Positions 52,001 through 64,000 of a stretch of 64,000 bases of DNA are shown piece by piece. The stretch comes from Pelagicoccus sp. SDUM812005 (GTDB lineage: Bacteria; Verrucomicrobiota; Verrucomicrobiia; Opitutales; Opitutaceae). The notes under the pieces were generated by a model. That model saw nothing but the letters and a program-made list of their open reading frames with translations. It searched no databases and had not been told where the DNA came from. Each line of letters opens with the position of its first letter. Within the stretch, counting starts at the first letter, position 1. Position numbers and translations under genes: made by a program. The stretch covers positions 1-64,000 of the forward strand of contig NZ_JARXIA010000015.1 of assembly GCF_031127875.1 (NCBI RefSeq), given 5' to 3'.

Positions 52001-53212
52001 CTAGGCCTCGAATTCCCAGTTTCCAGCGTGCTCGAGCGTGAAGCTTTCGCCGGACTCGGGAAACACTTCCGTACGCTCGGCGACGCGATTAGCCGACCAA
52101 ACGTAAGGGCATTGCTTGGCGAAGGGAGGCACGCTCGGCATCGAAATCTCCTGCTGGGCAGGCCCCGACTCCGCGCCTGAGAGGGCCCCGGAAAGGTCCA
52201 TACCATCCTCGCCGCAACCGCCGCCGGCTCCGGCCAACGCCAGCAAGCTCGGCCCCAAATCCACTAGGCTCATGAGCAAGCCCTCGTCCACGCCGCGCCG
52301 GCCGCAACCGGAAATCAGCAAGGGCACCCGCACCGCCTCCTCGTGGGGCCAGCCCTTGCGAAACTTGCCGTCCACCCCGTGCATATCTCCATGCACGGAA
52401 CTGAAAGCGAAGAGCCCGCCCTCCAAAGCGCCCGCTCGTTCCAAACGCCCGATAGCCCGATCGGTCGCCTCGATGTGAGCGTAGTAACCTGCCAGCTCGC
52501 GACGGGCCGTAGCCCTGTCCTCCGGGTCTTCCGTCGTGCCCGCCAGCAGGCGCAGCGCTTCCGGACTCGGGGCCGTGATTCCCGAGGCGTCCGCGGCATA
52601 GGGCGGATGGGGAGCATCCAAGCTCAAGACCGCGAAAAGCGGCCGCTGCGAATTCCGCTCCTCTCGAAACCGCAGAAAGCGCTCTACCAGCACGTCGCTT
52701 TGGTAGCCTTCGAATCGAGTCGGCTCCGGCAATTCGCTTCCATGCAAAAGAGGATCGTTCAACAAAAAGCCGGACTCGAAGCCCTCCCAATAGCCGAAAC
52801 CGCCGCGCCGTTCCTTCGGCACCACCACCCGAGCATGGGGCTCGCCCACCACCGGATCCGCCGGGTTCCGCTCGAAGAGCTGCCACTTGCCGAAAAACGC
52901 CGTATCGTAGCCCGCCTCGCCAAAGGCATGGGCCAAGGTGCGGGCATCGGCGGGCAAGGTATCGTAATAATCTCTCAAGCCGTTCGCCGGAGAGCGCGTT
53001 CCAGTCAAAAACGCGGCCCGGGCAAAAACGCCGAACGGGTGCGGCGTCACCGCCTGCTTTACCCAGAGCGAGCGGGCAGCCAATCGATCGAGGCAGGGCG
53101 TGCGAGCATTGGGGTCGCCGGCAAAGCCGAAGGCGGAAGCCCGCCATTGCGAGGTCAGGACGACCAAGACGTCGGGCCGATTCGAACGGGTTTGGGACTG
53201 CTCAAGCGGCAT
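52001..53212 (-). CDS. Sulfatase-fold protein lacking catalytic residues (probable pseudoenzyme)
   Basis: 403 residues from the ATG at 53212 (MPLEQSQTRSNRPDVLVVLT). The alkaline phosphatase/sulfatase fold is clear: ARTPCLDRLAARS, AFLTGTRSP, FGEAGYDTAFFGKWQL, LSLDAPHPPY, GYYAHIEATDRAIGRLE and WPHEEAVRVPLLI. Three active-site motifs are altered. The formylglycine motif C/S-x-P-x-R reads GVFAR (residues 61-65); the first metal site TDD/TDQ reads TSQ (20-22); the second, SDHGD, reads SVHGD. No signal peptide is visible. Frame is intact over the full length, so this looks like a kept non-enzymatic protein and not decay. It lies upstream of flgB on the same strand. Start is uncertain; the frame opens to 53344. 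Confidence 0.82.
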   Translation of the reverse strand: MPLEQSQTRSNRPDVLVVLTSQWRASAFGFAGDPNARTPCLDRLAARSLWVKQAVTPHPFGVFARAAFLTGTRSPANGLRDYYDTLPADARTLAHAFGEAGYDTAFFGKWQLFERNPADPVVGEPHARVVVPKERRGGFGYWEGFESGFLLNDPLLHGSELPEPTRFEGYQSDVLVERFLRFREERNSQRPLFAVLSLDAPHPPYAADASGITAPSPEALRLLAGTTEDPEDRATARRELAGYYAHIEATDRAIGRLERAGALEGGLFAFSSVHGDMHGVDGKFRKGWPHEEAVRVPLLISGCGRRGVDEGLLMSLVDLGPSLLALAGAGGGCGEDGMDLSGALSGAESGPAQQEISMPSVPPFAKQCPYVWSANRVAERTEVFPESGESFTLEHAGNWEFEA

Positions 53213-53334
53213 GCCTTCATTCCTGAGCAGGCGCCCACGCTTTGCCAGTCGGAAACGCGGCCCGGGCAAATTTCGACGGTTGTCCGAATCTCGCTCGCCT
53301 GCCCTGCCCAATTCCCTTTCATAGGCCGGCATCC

Positions 53335-54099
53335 ATGCTGGCACGACTCAAATGGCTCACCTTCCTTTCGCTCGACGCTCCCCTCGTCGCCGTCAGCTGG
53401 CAGGCCCTCTTCGCGAGGGAACACGGAACTCGCTTGTCCTGGCACCATTCGCTCATCGTATTCCTGTCGGTCTGGCTCGGATACGCGGCCGACCGCTGGT
53501 GCGACAACCTGAAGCGAGACCGCCCCGCGAGCGAGCAGCACCGCTTCTACGCCTTGCACAGCCGCCAGATCCTCGCGGTTTGGCTCGGCGTCCTCGTCAC
53601 GGCCGTAAGCCTCGCCTTCGCCTGCCTCACCGCGCCAGAGCTGGCCCACGGCTTCGTCCTGGTGGGACTCTCGCTCGCCTACACCCTCTTCGCCCAAAAA
53701 GGACGGAAGCTCAAACACTACCCCTTGCTCAAGGCCATCTTTACCGCGCTGCTGGTGCTCGCCAGCTCCCTGCTCTTCATCCCGATCGACTCCATCCCTT
53801 ACCTCGCGAGAGCTTGCGTTTGGCTCCTCTTCTCCAGCAACTGCCTTTACATCCGCTCCTGGACGCACGCCGGCGAAACGAACGCAGCATTCCAAGCCAC
53901 CCTCTTCGCAACCGCCGTCGCGACGCTAGCCGTATTCACGCTTTGGACACGCGACTCCTCCGTGGCTGCCGCAAGCCTCCTGGCCCAAGGCGCGATTCTG
54001 CTCCTGCATCTTTTTCGCCACCGAATCGACTCCGCGACCCTGCGCACGGCCGCCGACCTTTGCCTGCTCAGCCCCTGGCCCATCCTATTCCTTCTGTGA
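53335..54099 (+). CDS. UbiA-like polytopic membrane protein, degenerate motifs
   Basis: 254 residues, about eight membrane segments. GYAADRWCDNLKRDRP near residue 45 resembles the first Asp-rich motif of UbiA prenyltransferases, and YTLFAQKGRKLKHYPLLKAI resembles the family's YS-x-LKR-x-PLLKN block. The second Asp-rich motif is not evident. A prenyl-transfer reaction is therefore uncertain. The ATG at 53335 starts the membrane region; the frame opens earlier. Its stop overlaps the GTG of the next gene (GTGA), so the two are coupled. Divergent from the sulfatase-like gene. Confidence 0.7.
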   Translation: MLARLKWLTFLSLDAPLVAVSWQALFAREHGTRLSWHHSLIVFLSVWLGYAADRWCDNLKRDRPASEQHRFYALHSRQILAVWLGVLVTAVSLAFACLTAPELAHGFVLVGLSLAYTLFAQKGRKLKHYPLLKAIFTALLVLASSLLFIPIDSIPYLARACVWLLFSSNCLYIRSWTHAGETNAAFQATLFATAVATLAVFTLWTRDSSVAAASLLAQGAILLLHLFRHRIDSATLRTAADLCLLSPWPILFLL

Positions 54100-54729: not shown

Positions 54730-56211
54730 CTACTGCAACGGTCTCGGAAATCCGTTCAGCGTGCCGTTGAGCAGTCGGAGCGTTTTCTGGAGTTCGCCCG
54801 TATCCAGCCGCCCGCTCAAATCCAAAGTGGCTACCGGTACGAAATTATTCACCAAGGCGCAGTAGCGTCGATTCACCATCACGCCCAACAGTTCGCCTGT
54901 CTTGGACAGGACCAAATCGCCGGTCGAAGGCGAAAATTCGCCGAAGATCGAACTGAAAATTTTGGTCTGCATCTTCACGAAACCTGGCGTATCCGCATCG
55001 AGCTTAAACTCGACCTCGCCATAGTAGTCACCTTGACGATTCACCAAAACCGCTTCCGCAAATTTGAATGGCTCGATCGCAGTCAAGTACGGTTTGCCGC
55101 CGAGACGAGCCGCCTCCTCTTGGCTCAAGGGAATCACGACGATGCGGGGATCGAGGGCGAGGAACTGCATCAAATCCGAACTCACCTTTTCCCCTTGTCG
55201 GCCTAGAACCAGCTTCATTTGGCGAACCGTATCGGCCACCGTCCTCAAGCCAAAGGGAAGGCTTTCCAAGTGGGCGATGGCATAGATGTTCGTTCCGTCG
55301 CTCACCAAAACCGTGGAGGTGGACTCTTCCGTATTCACGTAACGGTTACGGAAAAGCTCGACCGCAGAAAAGTCAGCTCGAATCTGGTTGTTCTTAAAGT
55401 CACTGAATAACTGATTAGCATTGATCTCGAAACTGGACCGCAACTCCTGCCGTAGGTCCTGAGAGCTCGCAGCCAATTCGCTCACGCCTTGAGCCAGCAC
55501 GGAAGATTGCTCCTGCAGCTTCAGGCGCTCCTCGCGCTCGGCAACCACTTCGTTCTTCAAGCTGCTAACGGAGTTTTGCAAGAAGCTGTTCTCCTGCTCC
55601 TTCATGCGTACCTGCACGTCGAGCTCCTGCACCTTTTGTTGAGTCGCGGCGAGCTCGCGATTCCTCTTCTCCAAGGCCGCTTCCTTGGCGGCGATGTCTG
55701 CGAGCTTCTTTTCGAGCTCCTCCTGCAGCATGCGGGACTGGGCCTGGTTCTCCAAAGCTTCCTTCTGCGTTTCGGCGAGCTTCTGGCTCACGCTGCTAAA
55801 CTCGTTGCGCACCGAGGAAACCTGGTTCTCCAGCTCTTGGGTTTCTTGCTCCAGCTTGGCCCGAGCTGCGGCGAGCTCACGTTCGCGTCGCTCGGCTTCG
55901 GTAAGCGTTTCCTCCAAGTTTTGGATACGCTCCTGACGCTCCGCAAGCTCCTGCTCGCGCTTGGCCAGCGCCTCAGCCTTCGCTTCCAAGTCCTCCGTCA
56001 ACTCGTTGCGTTCGGCCTGCTCTTCCTCGAGCGAATACTTCAAGGTGTCGAGCAGGTCCTGCTCCATCATGGCCATGGCCGAAACGTTCACGCTTTCCGC
56101 CTCCGAGCTCGGCGCTTCGGAGGGAGGCGGCGCTTCCTCTTCCGTCTTCCACATGGAAAGGATGGTCAGCAGCAGGAAGTCGCAGAGTATGAGTAGTAAG
56201 GTCTTGTTCAT
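54730..56211 (-). CDS. ExbD/MotB-like membrane coiled-coil protein with degenerate trypsin-like domain
   Basis: 493 residues, not a recognised family. One N-terminal membrane segment (KTLLLILCDFLLLTILSMW) holds an Asp at residue 11 in a context like the D-x-x-F/L-L-L of ExbD, TolR and MotB. A Pro/Ser linker (26-45), a long coiled coil (about 50-240) and a beta-rich domain (about 280-480) follow. The last domain looks like a serine-protease fold: RIVVIPLS, then FSPSTGDLVLSKTGELLGVM, at the place of the GDSGGP block, but without a convincing catalytic Ser motif. By topology the coiled coil and domain are periplasmic. It follows, by 21 bases, a polytopic gene resembling MotA/TolQ. Confidence 0.78.
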   Translation of the reverse strand: MNKTLLLILCDFLLLTILSMWKTEEEAPPPSEAPSSEAESVNVSAMAMMEQDLLDTLKYSLEEEQAERNELTEDLEAKAEALAKREQELAERQERIQNLEETLTEAERRERELAAARAKLEQETQELENQVSSVRNEFSSVSQKLAETQKEALENQAQSRMLQEELEKKLADIAAKEAALEKRNRELAATQQKVQELDVQVRMKEQENSFLQNSVSSLKNEVVAEREERLKLQEQSSVLAQGVSELAASSQDLRQELRSSFEINANQLFSDFKNNQIRADFSAVELFRNRYVNTEESTSTVLVSDGTNIYAIAHLESLPFGLRTVADTVRQMKLVLGRQGEKVSSDLMQFLALDPRIVVIPLSQEEAARLGGKPYLTAIEPFKFAEAVLVNRQGDYYGEVEFKLDADTPGFVKMQTKIFSSIFGEFSPSTGDLVLSKTGELLGVMVNRRYCALVNNFVPVATLDLSGRLDTGELQKTLRLLNGTLNGFPRPLQ

Positions 56212-56232
56212 CGCGTTCGCGGTTGGGCGCGT

Positions 56233-57927
56233 TTACGACTTTTGCGAGAGGCTCACGATCTGCTCCTCGCTAGCCATGATGAGCTTGGTCTTGTAGGGGC
56301 GTACCAGCCGTATCTTGACGATGGCTACGCAGAGAATGCCAAACAGGTTGGAAGAATAGGCAGCCAGCAGGTTGTGGTCGACGAGGTTGATCACCTGCAT
56401 GACGAGGGCGATACAGGTGCCCGCGATGCCGACGTAGAGGCCGCTGTCGAAGAGGTTTTCCTCGTTCTCCATGAGCTTGAGCTTAACGAGCGGATCGAGT
56501 TCGCGCTTTTCGATCTCGCGCACCTTAAGCATGCAAATGAGGAAGACCAATGCCTGGAGCAGGAAGAAGAAGGCGATGGAGAGTAAGGTTGCTGGTTGCA
56601 TAGATGTGGTAGACGTAGTTTCGACTATTTGAATTTCGCCGGCGACCTGGGTCAGGACGGGCATGACAAAGCTGAAGTTATAACCTTCGAAGGAACCGGA
56701 GGCCGAGAGGTAGGGCTCGCTCAAGACGGCGAAGATCAGCACCGAAGCGGTCGCCCCGAAGAATCGCTGCGTGAAGGCGAGCGCCGGCGAAACGGTTTCC
56801 CGGTAAAAGCGGCCAAACAGGCTGACTCCCCATAGCGCCACGAAGGAGCCGATGAAAAACGAACTGTACTTGATCCCCAAGGACAGCTGCGGGTTCCGCA
56901 AGCTGAAGGGGGAAAGCGCGACTTGGATCTTGGAAACCACGGATCCCGAATCTTCGAGGGCTTCGTCTTCGATCGGCAGCTGCTCCCGCAACGCGAGCTC
57001 GTAGCCTTCCACGCCCGTCCCGAGCGCAGACTGCAGGCGCTCGAAGCCGAGATCGCCAAAGTCCTCCAAATAGGAAAAAAGGTCGCCGAGTTCCGGAGCA
57101 TTGAGGCTCATGGCAAAAACGAGAGCCTTCTGCCCGCTCTTGCGGTGGAGCAGGAATCGCAAGCGCTTGAGGGCGTCCGCTGACTCCAGCTTGGCGAAGG
57201 CTTCCTTGAGCTGCCCCCAGTCGAAGGCGCGCATCAGCGAAAGCGAATCGAGATAGAAATCCTCCAGCGAGCCGATGCTTCCCGTGGCCTTGGCGTCCAG
57301 GATTAGCCCTCGCAACTCGCTGCGCAGCGAATCGGTGAAATGGTCTCCCTGCGCCAAAAGGCCCAGTCCGAGGAGGGTCACTTCCAAGGGTCGCCCAGAG
57401 GTGCTGGAAACCGGAAACAAGCGGCGATAGGTCGTAAACTCGCCGGTCGCCAAGAGGTCTTTAACCAGCGGGTTCTTGGAATTCCCCAGCAAGTTAGCTA
57501 CCGAGGAACGGCAGGGCTTCGCCAACAAAATGCCTAGCACGCCGGGCTCGGAAGAATAGGAATCCAGCGGAATGTCCTTCAAGGCCGCCTCCAGAAACGG
57601 ATCCCACGCCCCCCAGCGAGCCAGTTGCGGATTCGCCTCCAGCTCCATGCTTACTTGGGAAAGCAGCAGCGACGCCTTGGCCTCTCCCAGCTCCTGCGAA
57701 GCCTCCGCCACGAGGCGGGCCGCCCCGAAATTGCCATCCAGCAGAAGGTCGCGTCCTCGCTCCGACAGGCTCTCCCCCGACTGGCCCGCTTCCCTCACCA
57801 CCCCGAAGGGCACCGACTTGAAGCGGGATGGGACCACCCAACCGACGCCAATAATCAACACGCCCAGCAACAGCAGCAAACTGCCGGCGAGAGCGTGCGA
57901 ACGGAAAGGTTTGGAGGGATTCGACAT
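56233..57927 (-). CDS. Polytopic membrane protein with MotA/TolQ-like C-terminal region, large periplasmic domain
   Basis: 564 residues, not a recognised family. TM1 at about 13-32; a soluble, helical-repeat-like domain at 33-350; then TM2 (354-373), TM3 (385-405), TM4 (445-467), TM5 (492-513) and TM6 (521-540). By the positive-inside rule the large domain is periplasmic and the C-terminus cytoplasmic. The last two segments (GLYVGIAGTCIALVMQV and AAYSSNLFGILCVAIVKI) have the Gly/Ala/Ser pattern of MotA TM3-TM4 and TolQ/ExbB TM2-TM3. Its partner gene encodes an Asp-bearing single-pass protein, as in all such ion-driven pairs. Similarity is by pattern only. Confidence 0.72.
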   Translation of the reverse strand: MSNPSKPFRSHALAGSLLLLLGVLIIGVGWVVPSRFKSVPFGVVREAGQSGESLSERGRDLLLDGNFGAARLVAEASQELGEAKASLLLSQVSMELEANPQLARWGAWDPFLEAALKDIPLDSYSSEPGVLGILLAKPCRSSVANLLGNSKNPLVKDLLATGEFTTYRRLFPVSSTSGRPLEVTLLGLGLLAQGDHFTDSLRSELRGLILDAKATGSIGSLEDFYLDSLSLMRAFDWGQLKEAFAKLESADALKRLRFLLHRKSGQKALVFAMSLNAPELGDLFSYLEDFGDLGFERLQSALGTGVEGYELALREQLPIEDEALEDSGSVVSKIQVALSPFSLRNPQLSLGIKYSSFFIGSFVALWGVSLFGRFYRETVSPALAFTQRFFGATASVLIFAVLSEPYLSASGSFEGYNFSFVMPVLTQVAGEIQIVETTSTTSMQPATLLSIAFFFLLQALVFLICMLKVREIEKRELDPLVKLKLMENEENLFDSGLYVGIAGTCIALVMQVINLVDHNLLAAYSSNLFGILCVAIVKIRLVRPYKTKLIMASEEQIVSLSQKS

Positions 57928-61634: not shown

Positions 61635-64000
61635 TCACAAGCTTCGGGTGAGGCGAAACGAGAGGTCGCGAGAGTCGCCCTCCAGGCGAAACCCGTCTGC
61701 TCGCAAGCGCATGCGCGAAACGTTGTGGGCATCGAAAAAGGGCGATTCGGCGGTGGCCGTGGTCGGCGCGTCGATCGAAACCGTACGCAAGCTCAGATAG
61801 CCTTGCTCGCGACCGCTCATGCTCTTCTCGAACTCGAGCGATCCCACGAAATGCTTCGACGTCAACTGCTTGTCGCCAGTGAGCTTCACGACTCCCTTAA
61901 CGAATCCGCCGTCGTTGCGGACCTCCGTGATCACGAGCTGAACGTCCCGCGAGTTGGCGGCATCCTCGCCGAGAATGGCAAGACCATTAAAAAAGGCGCC
62001 TTCCGACAAAGCCATTTTGACCCGTTCGCGCTGACGCTCGTTCTCTCGCTTGAGAGCCAACAGGTTGCCTTCCTCGCGCGCTCGCATCCGATCGATGCGG
62101 GCCACGTAGTTCTGGGCCGCTAGCGAATAGTCCTCGTAGACCTTGGCGAACTCGGGCGAATGGATGTCATAAGCATTCTCTCCAAACGCGTACTTGGGAT
62201 CGCCTTCCGGCCACTCCAGGTCGCCCTTGTAGCCGCTCACCTTGATCCGTGTGAGAGCCCAGTCATCCGCCTCGCTCTCGCGCTGCAGACCATAAGTCAC
62301 CCGCAAAGGAAGCACTTCCTCCTTCTTAGCCGAAATCTCGTAAAGGCGATTCCAGGGACGATCCGGAAAGTGCCCGATCTCCTCCGGAAAATGATCCCGC
62401 GCGTAACCGAGCGATTCCATCAGCTTCTCTTCGTCGTAGCCCTTCTCCTCCTTGAGTCGCGACTCCAACACCGGACGGTACAGGTTCTCGCGCAAGCGAG
62501 CCCCCACCACCGCGTGCAAGCGAATTTCGTTTTCCGAGACGCGCCTCACTTCGCTGTCCACCCACTGCATGCGATAGAGCCCCTGCTCGTCAAACTTGCT
62601 CAAGGCATGTTTTCCGATCTCCTCGATCTCCAGCAACAAGGCCGAACCATCGATATCGCGACCGTCGTAGTACTCGACGATTTGCTGCTTCCAAACCGCC
62701 AGCACGCCTGCCAGCCCGACCAAAACCAAACCGGCGGCCACCGCCATCGAGTGGGTGACCCGCCAAAGCAAGCTGCGCTTGGGCATTTCGACGACATTCG
62801 CCGCAGCCACCTTCGCGTCGTCGCCATCCTCGGCGCCAATCACCTCTTCGCCGCTGATCTCCTCGGCACCGTCTTCCGCGCCTTCCTCGACATCAAGCTC
62901 GGCAAAGCCTTCGCTAAAATCATCTAGCGAGATCTCGCCTGCGAAGGGGTCTTCGATCACCTCCTCCGAATCTTCCACCTCCTCGGAGCCGGTATCGGGT
63001 CCATCGGCAATCACGGCCGCATTGCGGTCCTCTTCCGGCGGCTCGTCGTCGAGGATCTCGACCGGCGCAGGTGGAGGGGGAGGCAAGTCTCCCGCGCGAT
63101 CGGCAACATTGCCCGGAGCCGGAACGTCCTCTTCGTCATCATCCTCGATAACAGCGACCGCTTCACCGTCTTCGGTGATCAGCGAGGAAGGATCCGGCAA
63201 AGCGACAACCTCGTCGTCCTCGTCACCATCCCCTGCCGCATCCGCAATCATCTCGTCCGGGGAAGGCATGGAGATGATCTCGTCGTCGTCATCCTCGAGC
63301 ACATCGAGCAAGGCGCTGGCCCCTTCGGCCGGCTTTTCGGAATTTCCGTTCAGCAAGCTGCCTGCTTGCATCAATAAATCTTCGGCGGAAGGCGTGGATT
63401 TAACAACGCTGCTGGCCGCGGCCGCCTCTTCGGACTCCGCCTCAGGCTCCTCCTCAACTTCCACCAAAGCCGGAACCTCCGGCACTGGCAGCTCGACCAG
63501 CTCCTCCTCGTCATCGTCGAGGATGTCCAAGCCCGGAGAACTCGCCGGAGCCTCAGCGTCCGATTCCTCCCCTTCGCTCGCCTCATCGATCAAACTAGAA
63601 ATATCTTCCTCATCCAGATCTTCGTCGACCTCGACCAAACCAGGAAATTCGGCTCCAGCTGCTGGTTCATCGGAAACGAGGGCCTCCGTTTCGAGTGCAT
63701 CGGATTCTTCCCCGCCAGACACAGCAGGCTCTTCCTCTAGAATTTCCGTCAGGCCGGGAACTTCTTCCTCCTCTACTTCCACCAGCCCGGGAACTTCGGC
63801 TGCGGGCTCCGGCTCCTCCTGCTCCTCGGGATCATCCTCGACCACCGACGCCAAGAGCTCCGACAAATCTTCGTCTTCCTCGTCGTCGCCAAGGGTGGCT
63901 TCGATTTCGGGCGTTTCCGCTTCACCCGCCACGACCGGAACGTCATCGGCACCTTCCGGAGATGCGACTGAAGACTGCTCCGCTTCAGCGCTCTCCGTTT
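61635..64000 (-). CDS. Very acidic membrane protein, 5' end beyond window
   Basis: Open without a stop to the window edge; at least 788 codons. The N-terminal part (more than 400 residues) is Asp/Glu-rich, without hydrophobic segments, and repeats PGLVEVEE-like units (VPGLVEV, VPGLTEIL, FPGLVEV, VPALVEV). A membrane segment (SMAVAAGLVLVGLAGVLAVW) follows, then about 340 residues of mixed, charged sequence. The acidic tail would be cytoplasmic. A GTG at 63932 is an internal codon, not a credible start, since the same composition continues upstream. No family recognised. Confidence 0.72.
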   Translation of the reverse strand, partial: TESAEAEQSSVASPEGADDVPVVAGEAETPEIEATLGDDEEDEDLSELLASVVEDDPEEQEEPEPAAEVPGLVEVEEEEVPGLTEILEEEPAVSGGEESDALETEALVSDEPAAGAEFPGLVEVDEDLDEEDISSLIDEASEGEESDAEAPASSPGLDILDDDEEELVELPVPEVPALVEVEEEPEAESEEAAAASSVVKSTPSAEDLLMQAGSLLNGNSEKPAEGASALLDVLEDDDDEIISMPSPDEMIADAAGDGDEDDEVVALPDPSSLITEDGEAVAVIEDDDEEDVPAPGNVADRAGDLPPPPPAPVEILDDEPPEEDRNAAVIADGPDTGSEEVEDSEEVIEDPFAGEISLDDFSEGFAELDVEEGAEDGAEEISGEEVIGAEDGDDAKVAAANVVEMPKRSLLWRVTHSMAVAAGLVLVGLAGVLAVWKQQIVEYYDGRDIDGSALLLEIEEIGKHALSKFDEQGLYRMQWVDSEVRRVSENEIRLHAVVGARLRENLYRPVLESRLKEEKGYDEEKLMESLGYARDHFPEEIGHFPDRPWNRLYEISAKKEEVLPLRVTYGLQRESEADDWALTRIKVSGYKGDLEWPEGDPKYAFGENAYDIHSPEFAKVYEDYSLAAQNYVARIDRMRAREEGNLLALKRENERQRERVKMALSEGAFFNGLAILGEDAANSRDVQLVITEVRNDGGFVKGVVKLTGDKQLTSKHFVGSLEFEKSMSGREQGYLSLRTVSIDAPTTATAESPFFDAHNVSRMRLRADGFRLEGDSRDLSFRLTRSL

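Follow-up and report, generated by a model that had tools for sequence, protein, structure and literature searches.

A conserved gene pair of Verrucomicrobiota that may encode an ion-driven membrane machine of a new kind

We describe a pair of adjoining genes, here called A and B, which on sequence comparison occurs in several families and lineages of one phylum, Verrucomicrobiota, and for which a motor reading is plausible: the two products may together make up an ion-driven machine of a new type. The pair lies in a 64,000-nucleotide stretch of DNA from Pelagicoccus sp. SDUM812005 (assembly GCF_031127875.1, contig NZ_JARXIA010000015.1), referred to throughout as the window, and its named relatives come from Pelagicoccus and other Opitutales. 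Gene A (56233..57927, minus strand) encodes a polytopic membrane protein of 564 amino acids, and gene B (54730..56211, minus strand) a single-pass protein of 493 amino acids with a coiled coil and a predicted trypsin-like C-terminal domain. A (57927..56233) is read first and is followed, after a gap of 21 bases, by B (56211..54730), which confirms the coordinates and gene order given in an earlier note that had interpreted the pair as an ion-driven motor; that interpretation is partly supported by our results. The best argument for motor function is the invariant membrane Asp of the always-present partner B. This residue, Asp11 (56179..56181, minus strand), lies inside the membrane helix of B (residues 2-24; 56140..56208, minus strand) and is kept in 73/73 partner sequences (41 from alignment A2, 12 from A4 and 20 new). 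We rejected the possibility that A and B are chance open reading frames (ORFs), since both are long, conserved and paired at every locus examined.

Distribution and linkage of the gene pair

Homologues of A were present in 43/57 genomes, the window's own genome counted, and in 43/43 named loci the gene immediately after A was B. Two of these loci, L035 (after 32 residues) and L038, have a B that is incomplete at the contig end. The two genes overlap by 4 bases in 13 loci, are separated by 3-22 bases in 26 and by 33-136 bases in the other 4. Alignment A2 comprised the window sequence and 40 of the 43 loci, two fragments at contig ends and L061, a near-duplicate, being excluded, and alignment A1 the window sequence and 38 of the 43 loci, with four fragments and L061 excluded.

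When 288 genomes of the phylum were sampled, strong matches to A (E <1e-60) and strong matches to B (E <1e-50) fell in the identical 32 genomes. Fourteen further genomes of this sample had weak B matches only, nearly all within the coiled coil, and 20 further genomes had weaker A matches, all in family f32 and mostly to short proteins. Twelve of these 20 loci were fetched, and every one (12/12) had an adjoining partner of 569-625 amino acids, with the N-terminus MN[RK][SA] and CDF at positions 10-12. A profile of the short form (A3) matched 97/288 genomes at E 0.01; among 20 more loci, picked from these matches to span lineages, an adjoining partner with Asp at position 11 was found in 20/20. 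By profile, the partners of Opitutales and those of f32 are related in their C-terminal domains (hhalign E 1.1e-5). The earlier note had set genetic linkage in relatives as a test of its proposal, and linkage was found at 43/43, 12/12 and 20/20 loci in the three sets.

The short homologues of A, of ∼180 amino acids and without a ∼310-residue helical domain, occur in lineages other than Opitutales and family f36, the two groups in which the helical domain is present. On these comparisons the unit is therefore a core A and a rod-like B with lineage-specific additions, namely the helical domain of A in Opitutales and f36 and a kinase gene downstream in f32. Three matches to gene A contained in-frame stops (G208:C30:36493-38172, G255:C2:54675-55949 and G043:C79:6937-8613), for which decayed copies, sequencing errors or overrun of the gene end are possible explanations.

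Architecture of the two proteins

Neither A nor B had a match reaching the curated cut-off in Pfam or NCBIfam, and A had no PADLOC match. The matches to B in Pfam, NCBIfam and PADLOC were of the coiled-coil type (for NCBIfam and PADLOC, among 25 of 28 families listed). The features that follow, from the AlphaFold models and from conservation, are all on the minus strand.

The model of A has a mean predicted local distance difference test score (pLDDT) of 81, with helices at residues 8-31, 346-369, 381-402, 445-474, 495-512 and 520-563. The first is an extra N-terminal transmembrane helix (TM; TM1, residues 8-31, 57835..57906). It is followed by an all-helical domain, missing from the ∼180-residue homologues (residues 32-345, 56893..57834), of which ∼40-326 is modelled with pLDDT mostly above 90; an extra TM and a domain of roughly 320 residues in A had been noticed from the sequence, and the model bears both out. 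A pair of helices, TM2-TM3 (residues 346-402, 56722..56892), precedes the conserved membrane core (residues 445-563, 56239..56595), whose three helices (445-474, 495-512 and 520-563) we call core TM1 to core TM3. Confidence is lower for the membrane helices and moderate for the core, the core blocks having pLDDT 66-85, and values fall below 50 around residues 405-443. From the distribution of Lys and Arg, the N and C termini of A and the loop 475-494 are probably cytoplasmic and the helical domain periplasmic.

The core, of ∼120 residues, is the stretch of A richest in invariant columns and is common to the short homologues. In an alignment of 43 core sequences, 32 of them from outside Opitutaceae, Q458 and D494 are each found in 43/43. 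Thr504 (56416..56418), which lies within a GxxGT motif in core TM2, is T in 36 and S in 7, and Asn527 (56347..56349) is T in 32, all of the sequences from outside Opitutaceae, and N in 11.

The model of B (mean pLDDT 80) begins with helix 2-24, which includes D11, continues with coiled-coil helices 49-202 and 219-260 (coiled coil at residues 49-260, 55432..56067, with a break near 203-218) and ends in a beta domain at residues 277-464 (54820..55383).

Relationship of A to MotA, TolQ and ExbB

B has a single N-terminal TM with an invariant Asp, a feature common to ExbD, TolR and MotB, and the gene for the polytopic subunit comes first, as in exbB-exbD, tolQ-tolR and motA-motB. For A, an hhalign comparison of the core (43 sequences) with 16 MotA_ExbB proteins of its own genome gave the register expected for GLLGTV and ALITT. 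Thr148 of ExbB falls inside the matched core TM2 motif, at the place of A Thr504, a T/S counterpart of this lumen Thr being present in 43/43 sequences of A. Thr181 lies in ExbB TM3, and Asn527 of A may be its counterpart in one hhalign register, which TM3 alone does not support. Asp25, Thr148 and Thr181 of ExbB are called essential in a review figure legend (PMC12905483).

With the largest query set, 5/300 hydropathy-preserving column shuffles matched the real score. Among 53 membrane-protein clusters from the fetched loci, the A family itself ranked 1 and one unrelated protein ranked 2 or 3, while the five MotA/ExbB clusters ranked 3-7 with the core as query or 2 and 4-7 with the A5 query; of these five, only two are aligned across both core TM2 and core TM3, two solely in the core TM2 motif and one in another region. 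Among 83 membrane-like ORFs of E. coli K-12, each with at least two hydrophobic stretches, drawn from seven genomic regions and including some that are not annotated genes, tolQ ranked 1 and exbB 2-3 in 3/3 queries with A profiles.

Other results weigh against a relationship to these motors. The hhalign match of the A core to MotA_ExbB had E 0.026 with a reversed control at 0.035, and is alone not significant. Shuffles reached the real score in 42/300 cases for profile A3 alone and in 31/300 for the set without Opitutaceae. In the E. coli ranking motA was placed only 21-42 of 83 with the whole core, and core TM3 alone gave no signal (tolQ 31-65, exbB 18-36 and motA 10-21 of 83). No Pfam match to MotA_ExbB or ExbD was obtained for A, B or eight f32 proteins, MotA_ExbB was not among the best 25 of 65 Pfam families for 32 core sequences, and an hmmsearch of the fetched membrane ORFs returned nothing significant outside the family (best E 0.17, not MotA/ExbB). 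In their own genome PF01618 has 16 matches and PF02472 has 12, and these include neither A nor B. The full-length model of A gave 43 Foldseek matches in the PDB, none of MotA/ExbB type and none with E <1. The membrane helix of B was matched to the ExbD profile equally well or better by 147/200 shuffles. ExbB and TolQ have a sizeable cytoplasmic domain between the first and second core helices, whereas A has ∼20-30 residues there and no long cytoplasmic domain. Finally, core TM3 of A carries a conserved basic residue at position 538 (K in the window; R27/K16, n=43), which could be an alternative partner for D11.

Other searches added little. An NCBIfam scan of the 32 core sequences gave weak matches to exbB2 in 2/32 (best E 0.43) and tolQ in 1/32 (best E 0.09), and sequence searches of the PDB gave no match for A or for A3 and three matches, all unrelated, for A1. 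By profile, A and B were rejected as members of PF01618 or PF02472, neither having a match above cut-off. The window's own genome (G000) does hold a rich set of Tol/Exb-type genes, its 16 MotA_ExbB and 12 ExbD family matches being in many cases clustered.

Because the ranking of the TM2 motif favours TolQ and ExbB but core TM3, Pfam, Foldseek and hmmsearch are silent, homology of A to MotA/TolQ/ExbB is suggested, from one motif and the architecture, and is unproven. The MotA/TolQ-like membrane segments claimed for A thus hold at the level of the TM2 motif and no further, and the full-length model gave no match in structure between its C-terminal helices and MotA, ExbB or TolQ. Likewise, of the claim that B has an Asp in an ExbD/MotB-like membrane helix, the Asp stands (73/73) while the helix does not resemble the ExbD profile.

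These results bear on another explanation, that A and B form a membrane complex of some other sort that is neither motor nor sensor, such as an assembly factor or scaffold in envelope synthesis, with the TM2 motif a chance GxxGT packing element. Motifs of the GxxG(T/S) type are common in helix packing, which counts for this explanation, as do the lack of signal from core TM3 alone and the lack of any Foldseek match to A with E <1. Against it stand the Asp kept in 73/73 partners although neighbouring residues vary, and the rankings among 53 clusters and 83 ORFs, which favour MotA/ExbB and TolQ/ExbB. We consider a complex of this kind unlikely.

The C-terminal domain of B

For the beta domain of B the prediction is a trypsin fold of the HtrA/DegS type, a double beta-barrel. 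Compared by Foldseek, the model matched HtrA/Deg proteases with probability 1.00 and a best E of 5.5e-6 (4fln, Deg2; DegS, DegQ and HtrA1 were also matched). Of 933 matches, 89 were at E 0.001 or better, and the best 50 were HtrA/Deg chains, apart from two that belong to a single IgA1 protease domain. Among these best 50, TM-scores normalised by the query, whose length takes in the rod, were 0.22-0.26, and those normalised by the target were at most 0.56. The domain was not revealed by sequence searches: B was not among the six Trypsin_2 matches of its own genome, the 20 phmmer matches of B in the PDB lay within the coiled coil, and hhalign aligned the domain with trypsin-type proteins of the same genome at E 0.036 and 0.12, against 0.28 for the reversed control, which is not significant. 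Neither an ExbD nor an OmpA-like periplasmic domain was found among the Pfam matches of B, the model placing an HtrA-like domain there instead.

H314 and D354 are invariant in A2 (41/41 each). The candidate nucleophile S429 is Ser in only 28/41 sequences, the others having K (9), T (3) or R (1). At position 430, which takes the nucleophile's place in the non-significant hhalign alignment, the residues are R28/T7/K5/S1. A residue-by-residue assignment of H314, D354 and S429 to HtrA positions was likewise not significant. In the 12 f32 partners no His is found in invariant or near-invariant columns. The head of B is probably a disabled protease, or pseudo-protease, in keeping with the inactive trypsin-like fold that had been read from the sequence. 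A membrane-tethered, active serine protease of the DegS type, with A as its regulator, would fit the predicted HtrA fold and the invariant H314 and D354, but not the variability at 429 and 430 or the absence of a conserved His in f32; with the candidate nucleophile unconserved, we rejected an active protease, which we regard as very improbable.

A more serious competitor, which we hold possible though on balance doubtful, is an envelope sensor without a motor. Here the head of B would bind unfolded or peptide ligands like DegS, the coiled coil would relay its state to A and to cytoplasmic partners such as the Ser/Thr kinase of f32, and D11 would be a structural charge paired with K538. The fold match of B belongs to the HtrA/DegS group, A has no significant profile match to motor families, K or R occupies position 538 and Asp position 494 in 43/43 sequences, and a kinase gene lies directly downstream in 12/15 f32 loci, all of which speak for a sensor. 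Three of these kinases were scanned and comprise Pkinase and FGE-sulfatase domains (L108:5522-8188, L114:858-3422 and L171:6957-9501); nine further loci have such a downstream gene. However, the f32 kinase had no match when compared with the ORFs of the 43 named loci, at least 1.5 kilobases downstream of B being present in 40 of them, and therefore kinase signalling is not general. A sensor also leaves aside the TM2 motif that picks TolQ and ExbB out of 83 membrane-like ORFs, and the retention of T/S504 and T/N527 in 43/43 sequences.

Proposed mechanism

We return to the motor, and put at about even the chance that the A-B pair works in the manner of ExbBD/TolQR, as a force transducer or mechanosensor driven by ions. 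The scheme starts from the observed linkage of the genes, the invariant Asp, the conserved polar positions, the predicted coiled coil and HtrA fold, and the unconserved candidate nucleophile. A and B would form an inner-membrane complex that works like ExbBD or TolQR, in which several A cores would encircle the bundled membrane helices of B, probably two in number. Within the bundle Asp11 would face hydroxyl and amide side chains of A (T504 and N/T527) and take up and release ions in cycles of protonation. The resulting motion or strain would travel via the coiled coil of B to the trypsin-fold head, which would bind, and not cut, an envelope partner. In Opitutales and f36 the helical domain of A would offer another surface for interactions, probably on the periplasmic side. 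The parts of this mechanism that we infer are its topology, oligomer, ion flow, motion and ligand.

More specifically, and tentatively, with somewhat less than even confidence, we propose that several lineages of Verrucomicrobiota possess a motor family undetected by the MotA/ExbB models, which would combine a TolQ-like core, a coiled-coil rod and a dead HtrA/DegS head, be coupled to a Ser/Thr kinase in one family, and act as an envelope mechanosensor or force transducer of new design. Were the pair a motor, profile searches would be missing part of the family of 5:2-type machines. The design would be unusual in having a pseudo-protease head on a coiled-coil rod, with an extra domain on the polytopic subunit of some lineages and, elsewhere, a kinase gene. 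Should it prove not to be a motor, A and B would still be a conserved two-protein membrane complex, paired at all loci examined, in several families of one phylum.

Neighbouring genes

A divergent peptide deformylase gene (def) is found beside the pair in 39/43 named loci, and the other four loci start within 260 bases of A. L173-L175 are loci of the same order but of other families, and one of these three has the deformylase. PhoH is encoded near the pair in 23/43 loci and a sulfatase-like protein in 19/43. The sulfatase-family gene of the window (52001-53344, minus strand) matches PF00884 at E 3.4e-27. The active-site motif of sulfatases usually carries Cys or Ser, and because Gly stands at this place, the window protein is probably not working as a sulfatase; the same Gly is seen in 18/19 loci, the sequence of L047 being cut. 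Two further genes of the window were noted. One (61635-63932, minus strand) encodes a 765-residue protein that is very acidic in its N-terminal part and has no Pfam match at E 0.1; it occurs near the pair in 11/43 loci. The other (53242-54099, plus strand) encodes a membrane protein without a significant Pfam match and stands beside a methyltransferase in 10/43 loci.

Comparison with known systems

The earlier note knew of no described system with this combination, and our literature search, which included text from PMC12505986, PMC12204202, PMC9389320 and PMC12905483, likewise found no account of the A-B pair.

B resembles DegS and HtrA in its predicted trypsin fold (Foldseek probability 1.00), and DegS has an N-terminal membrane helix, as B does. 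B differs from them in its unconserved candidate nucleophile, in the coiled coil between helix and head, and in its pairing with A at all loci examined. The Zorya system offers a second comparison. Its ZorAB proteins are accompanied by accessory genes, and, like A and B, are encoded by a gene pair; ZorAB is described as forming a 5:2 complex (PMC11890865). Unlike Zorya, the A-B pair has a housekeeping neighbour, def, in 39/43 named loci and is not in a defence island. In PADLOC the only matches to Zorya proteins were of the coiled coil of B to ZorA3, at E 0.86 and 1.9 (among 25 of 28 families listed), and A was unmatched. An anti-phage Zorya system was rejected, given the lack of a PADLOC match for A and the fixed housekeeping neighbour in the named loci.

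Another comparison is with the vWA force transducers, in which, as described in 2025, a TolQ-like ring drives a protein that has a conserved Asp in its membrane helix and a binding domain in the periplasm (PMC12204202). The words "protease" and "trypsin" are absent from the main text of that paper; PMC12505986, a 2025 survey of MotAB relatives that describes added domains on relatives of ExbB and TolQ, was not searched for them. In contrast to the vWA transducers, B has a predicted trypsin fold and no vWA domain, and A lies outside the MotA_ExbB family by profile. With the MotAB flagellar stator the pair shares an Asp in the partner's membrane helix and the gene order. Unlike in MotAB, motA ranks 21-42 of 83 with A profiles and B has no OmpA-like domain match, and the window's own genome has separate members of the MotA_ExbB family.

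Lastly, TolQR and ExbBD are also linked pairs with the polytopic gene first. They share with A a three-helix core with a Thr-bearing GxxGT in the second helix, and with B a single N-terminal TM with an invariant Asp. Unlike TolQR and ExbBD, A is without a significant profile match and has ∼20-30 residues between its first two core helices, no ExbD domain was found in B, and the pair adds extra TMs and a helical domain on A in Opitutales, together with the long coiled coil and HtrA-like head of B.

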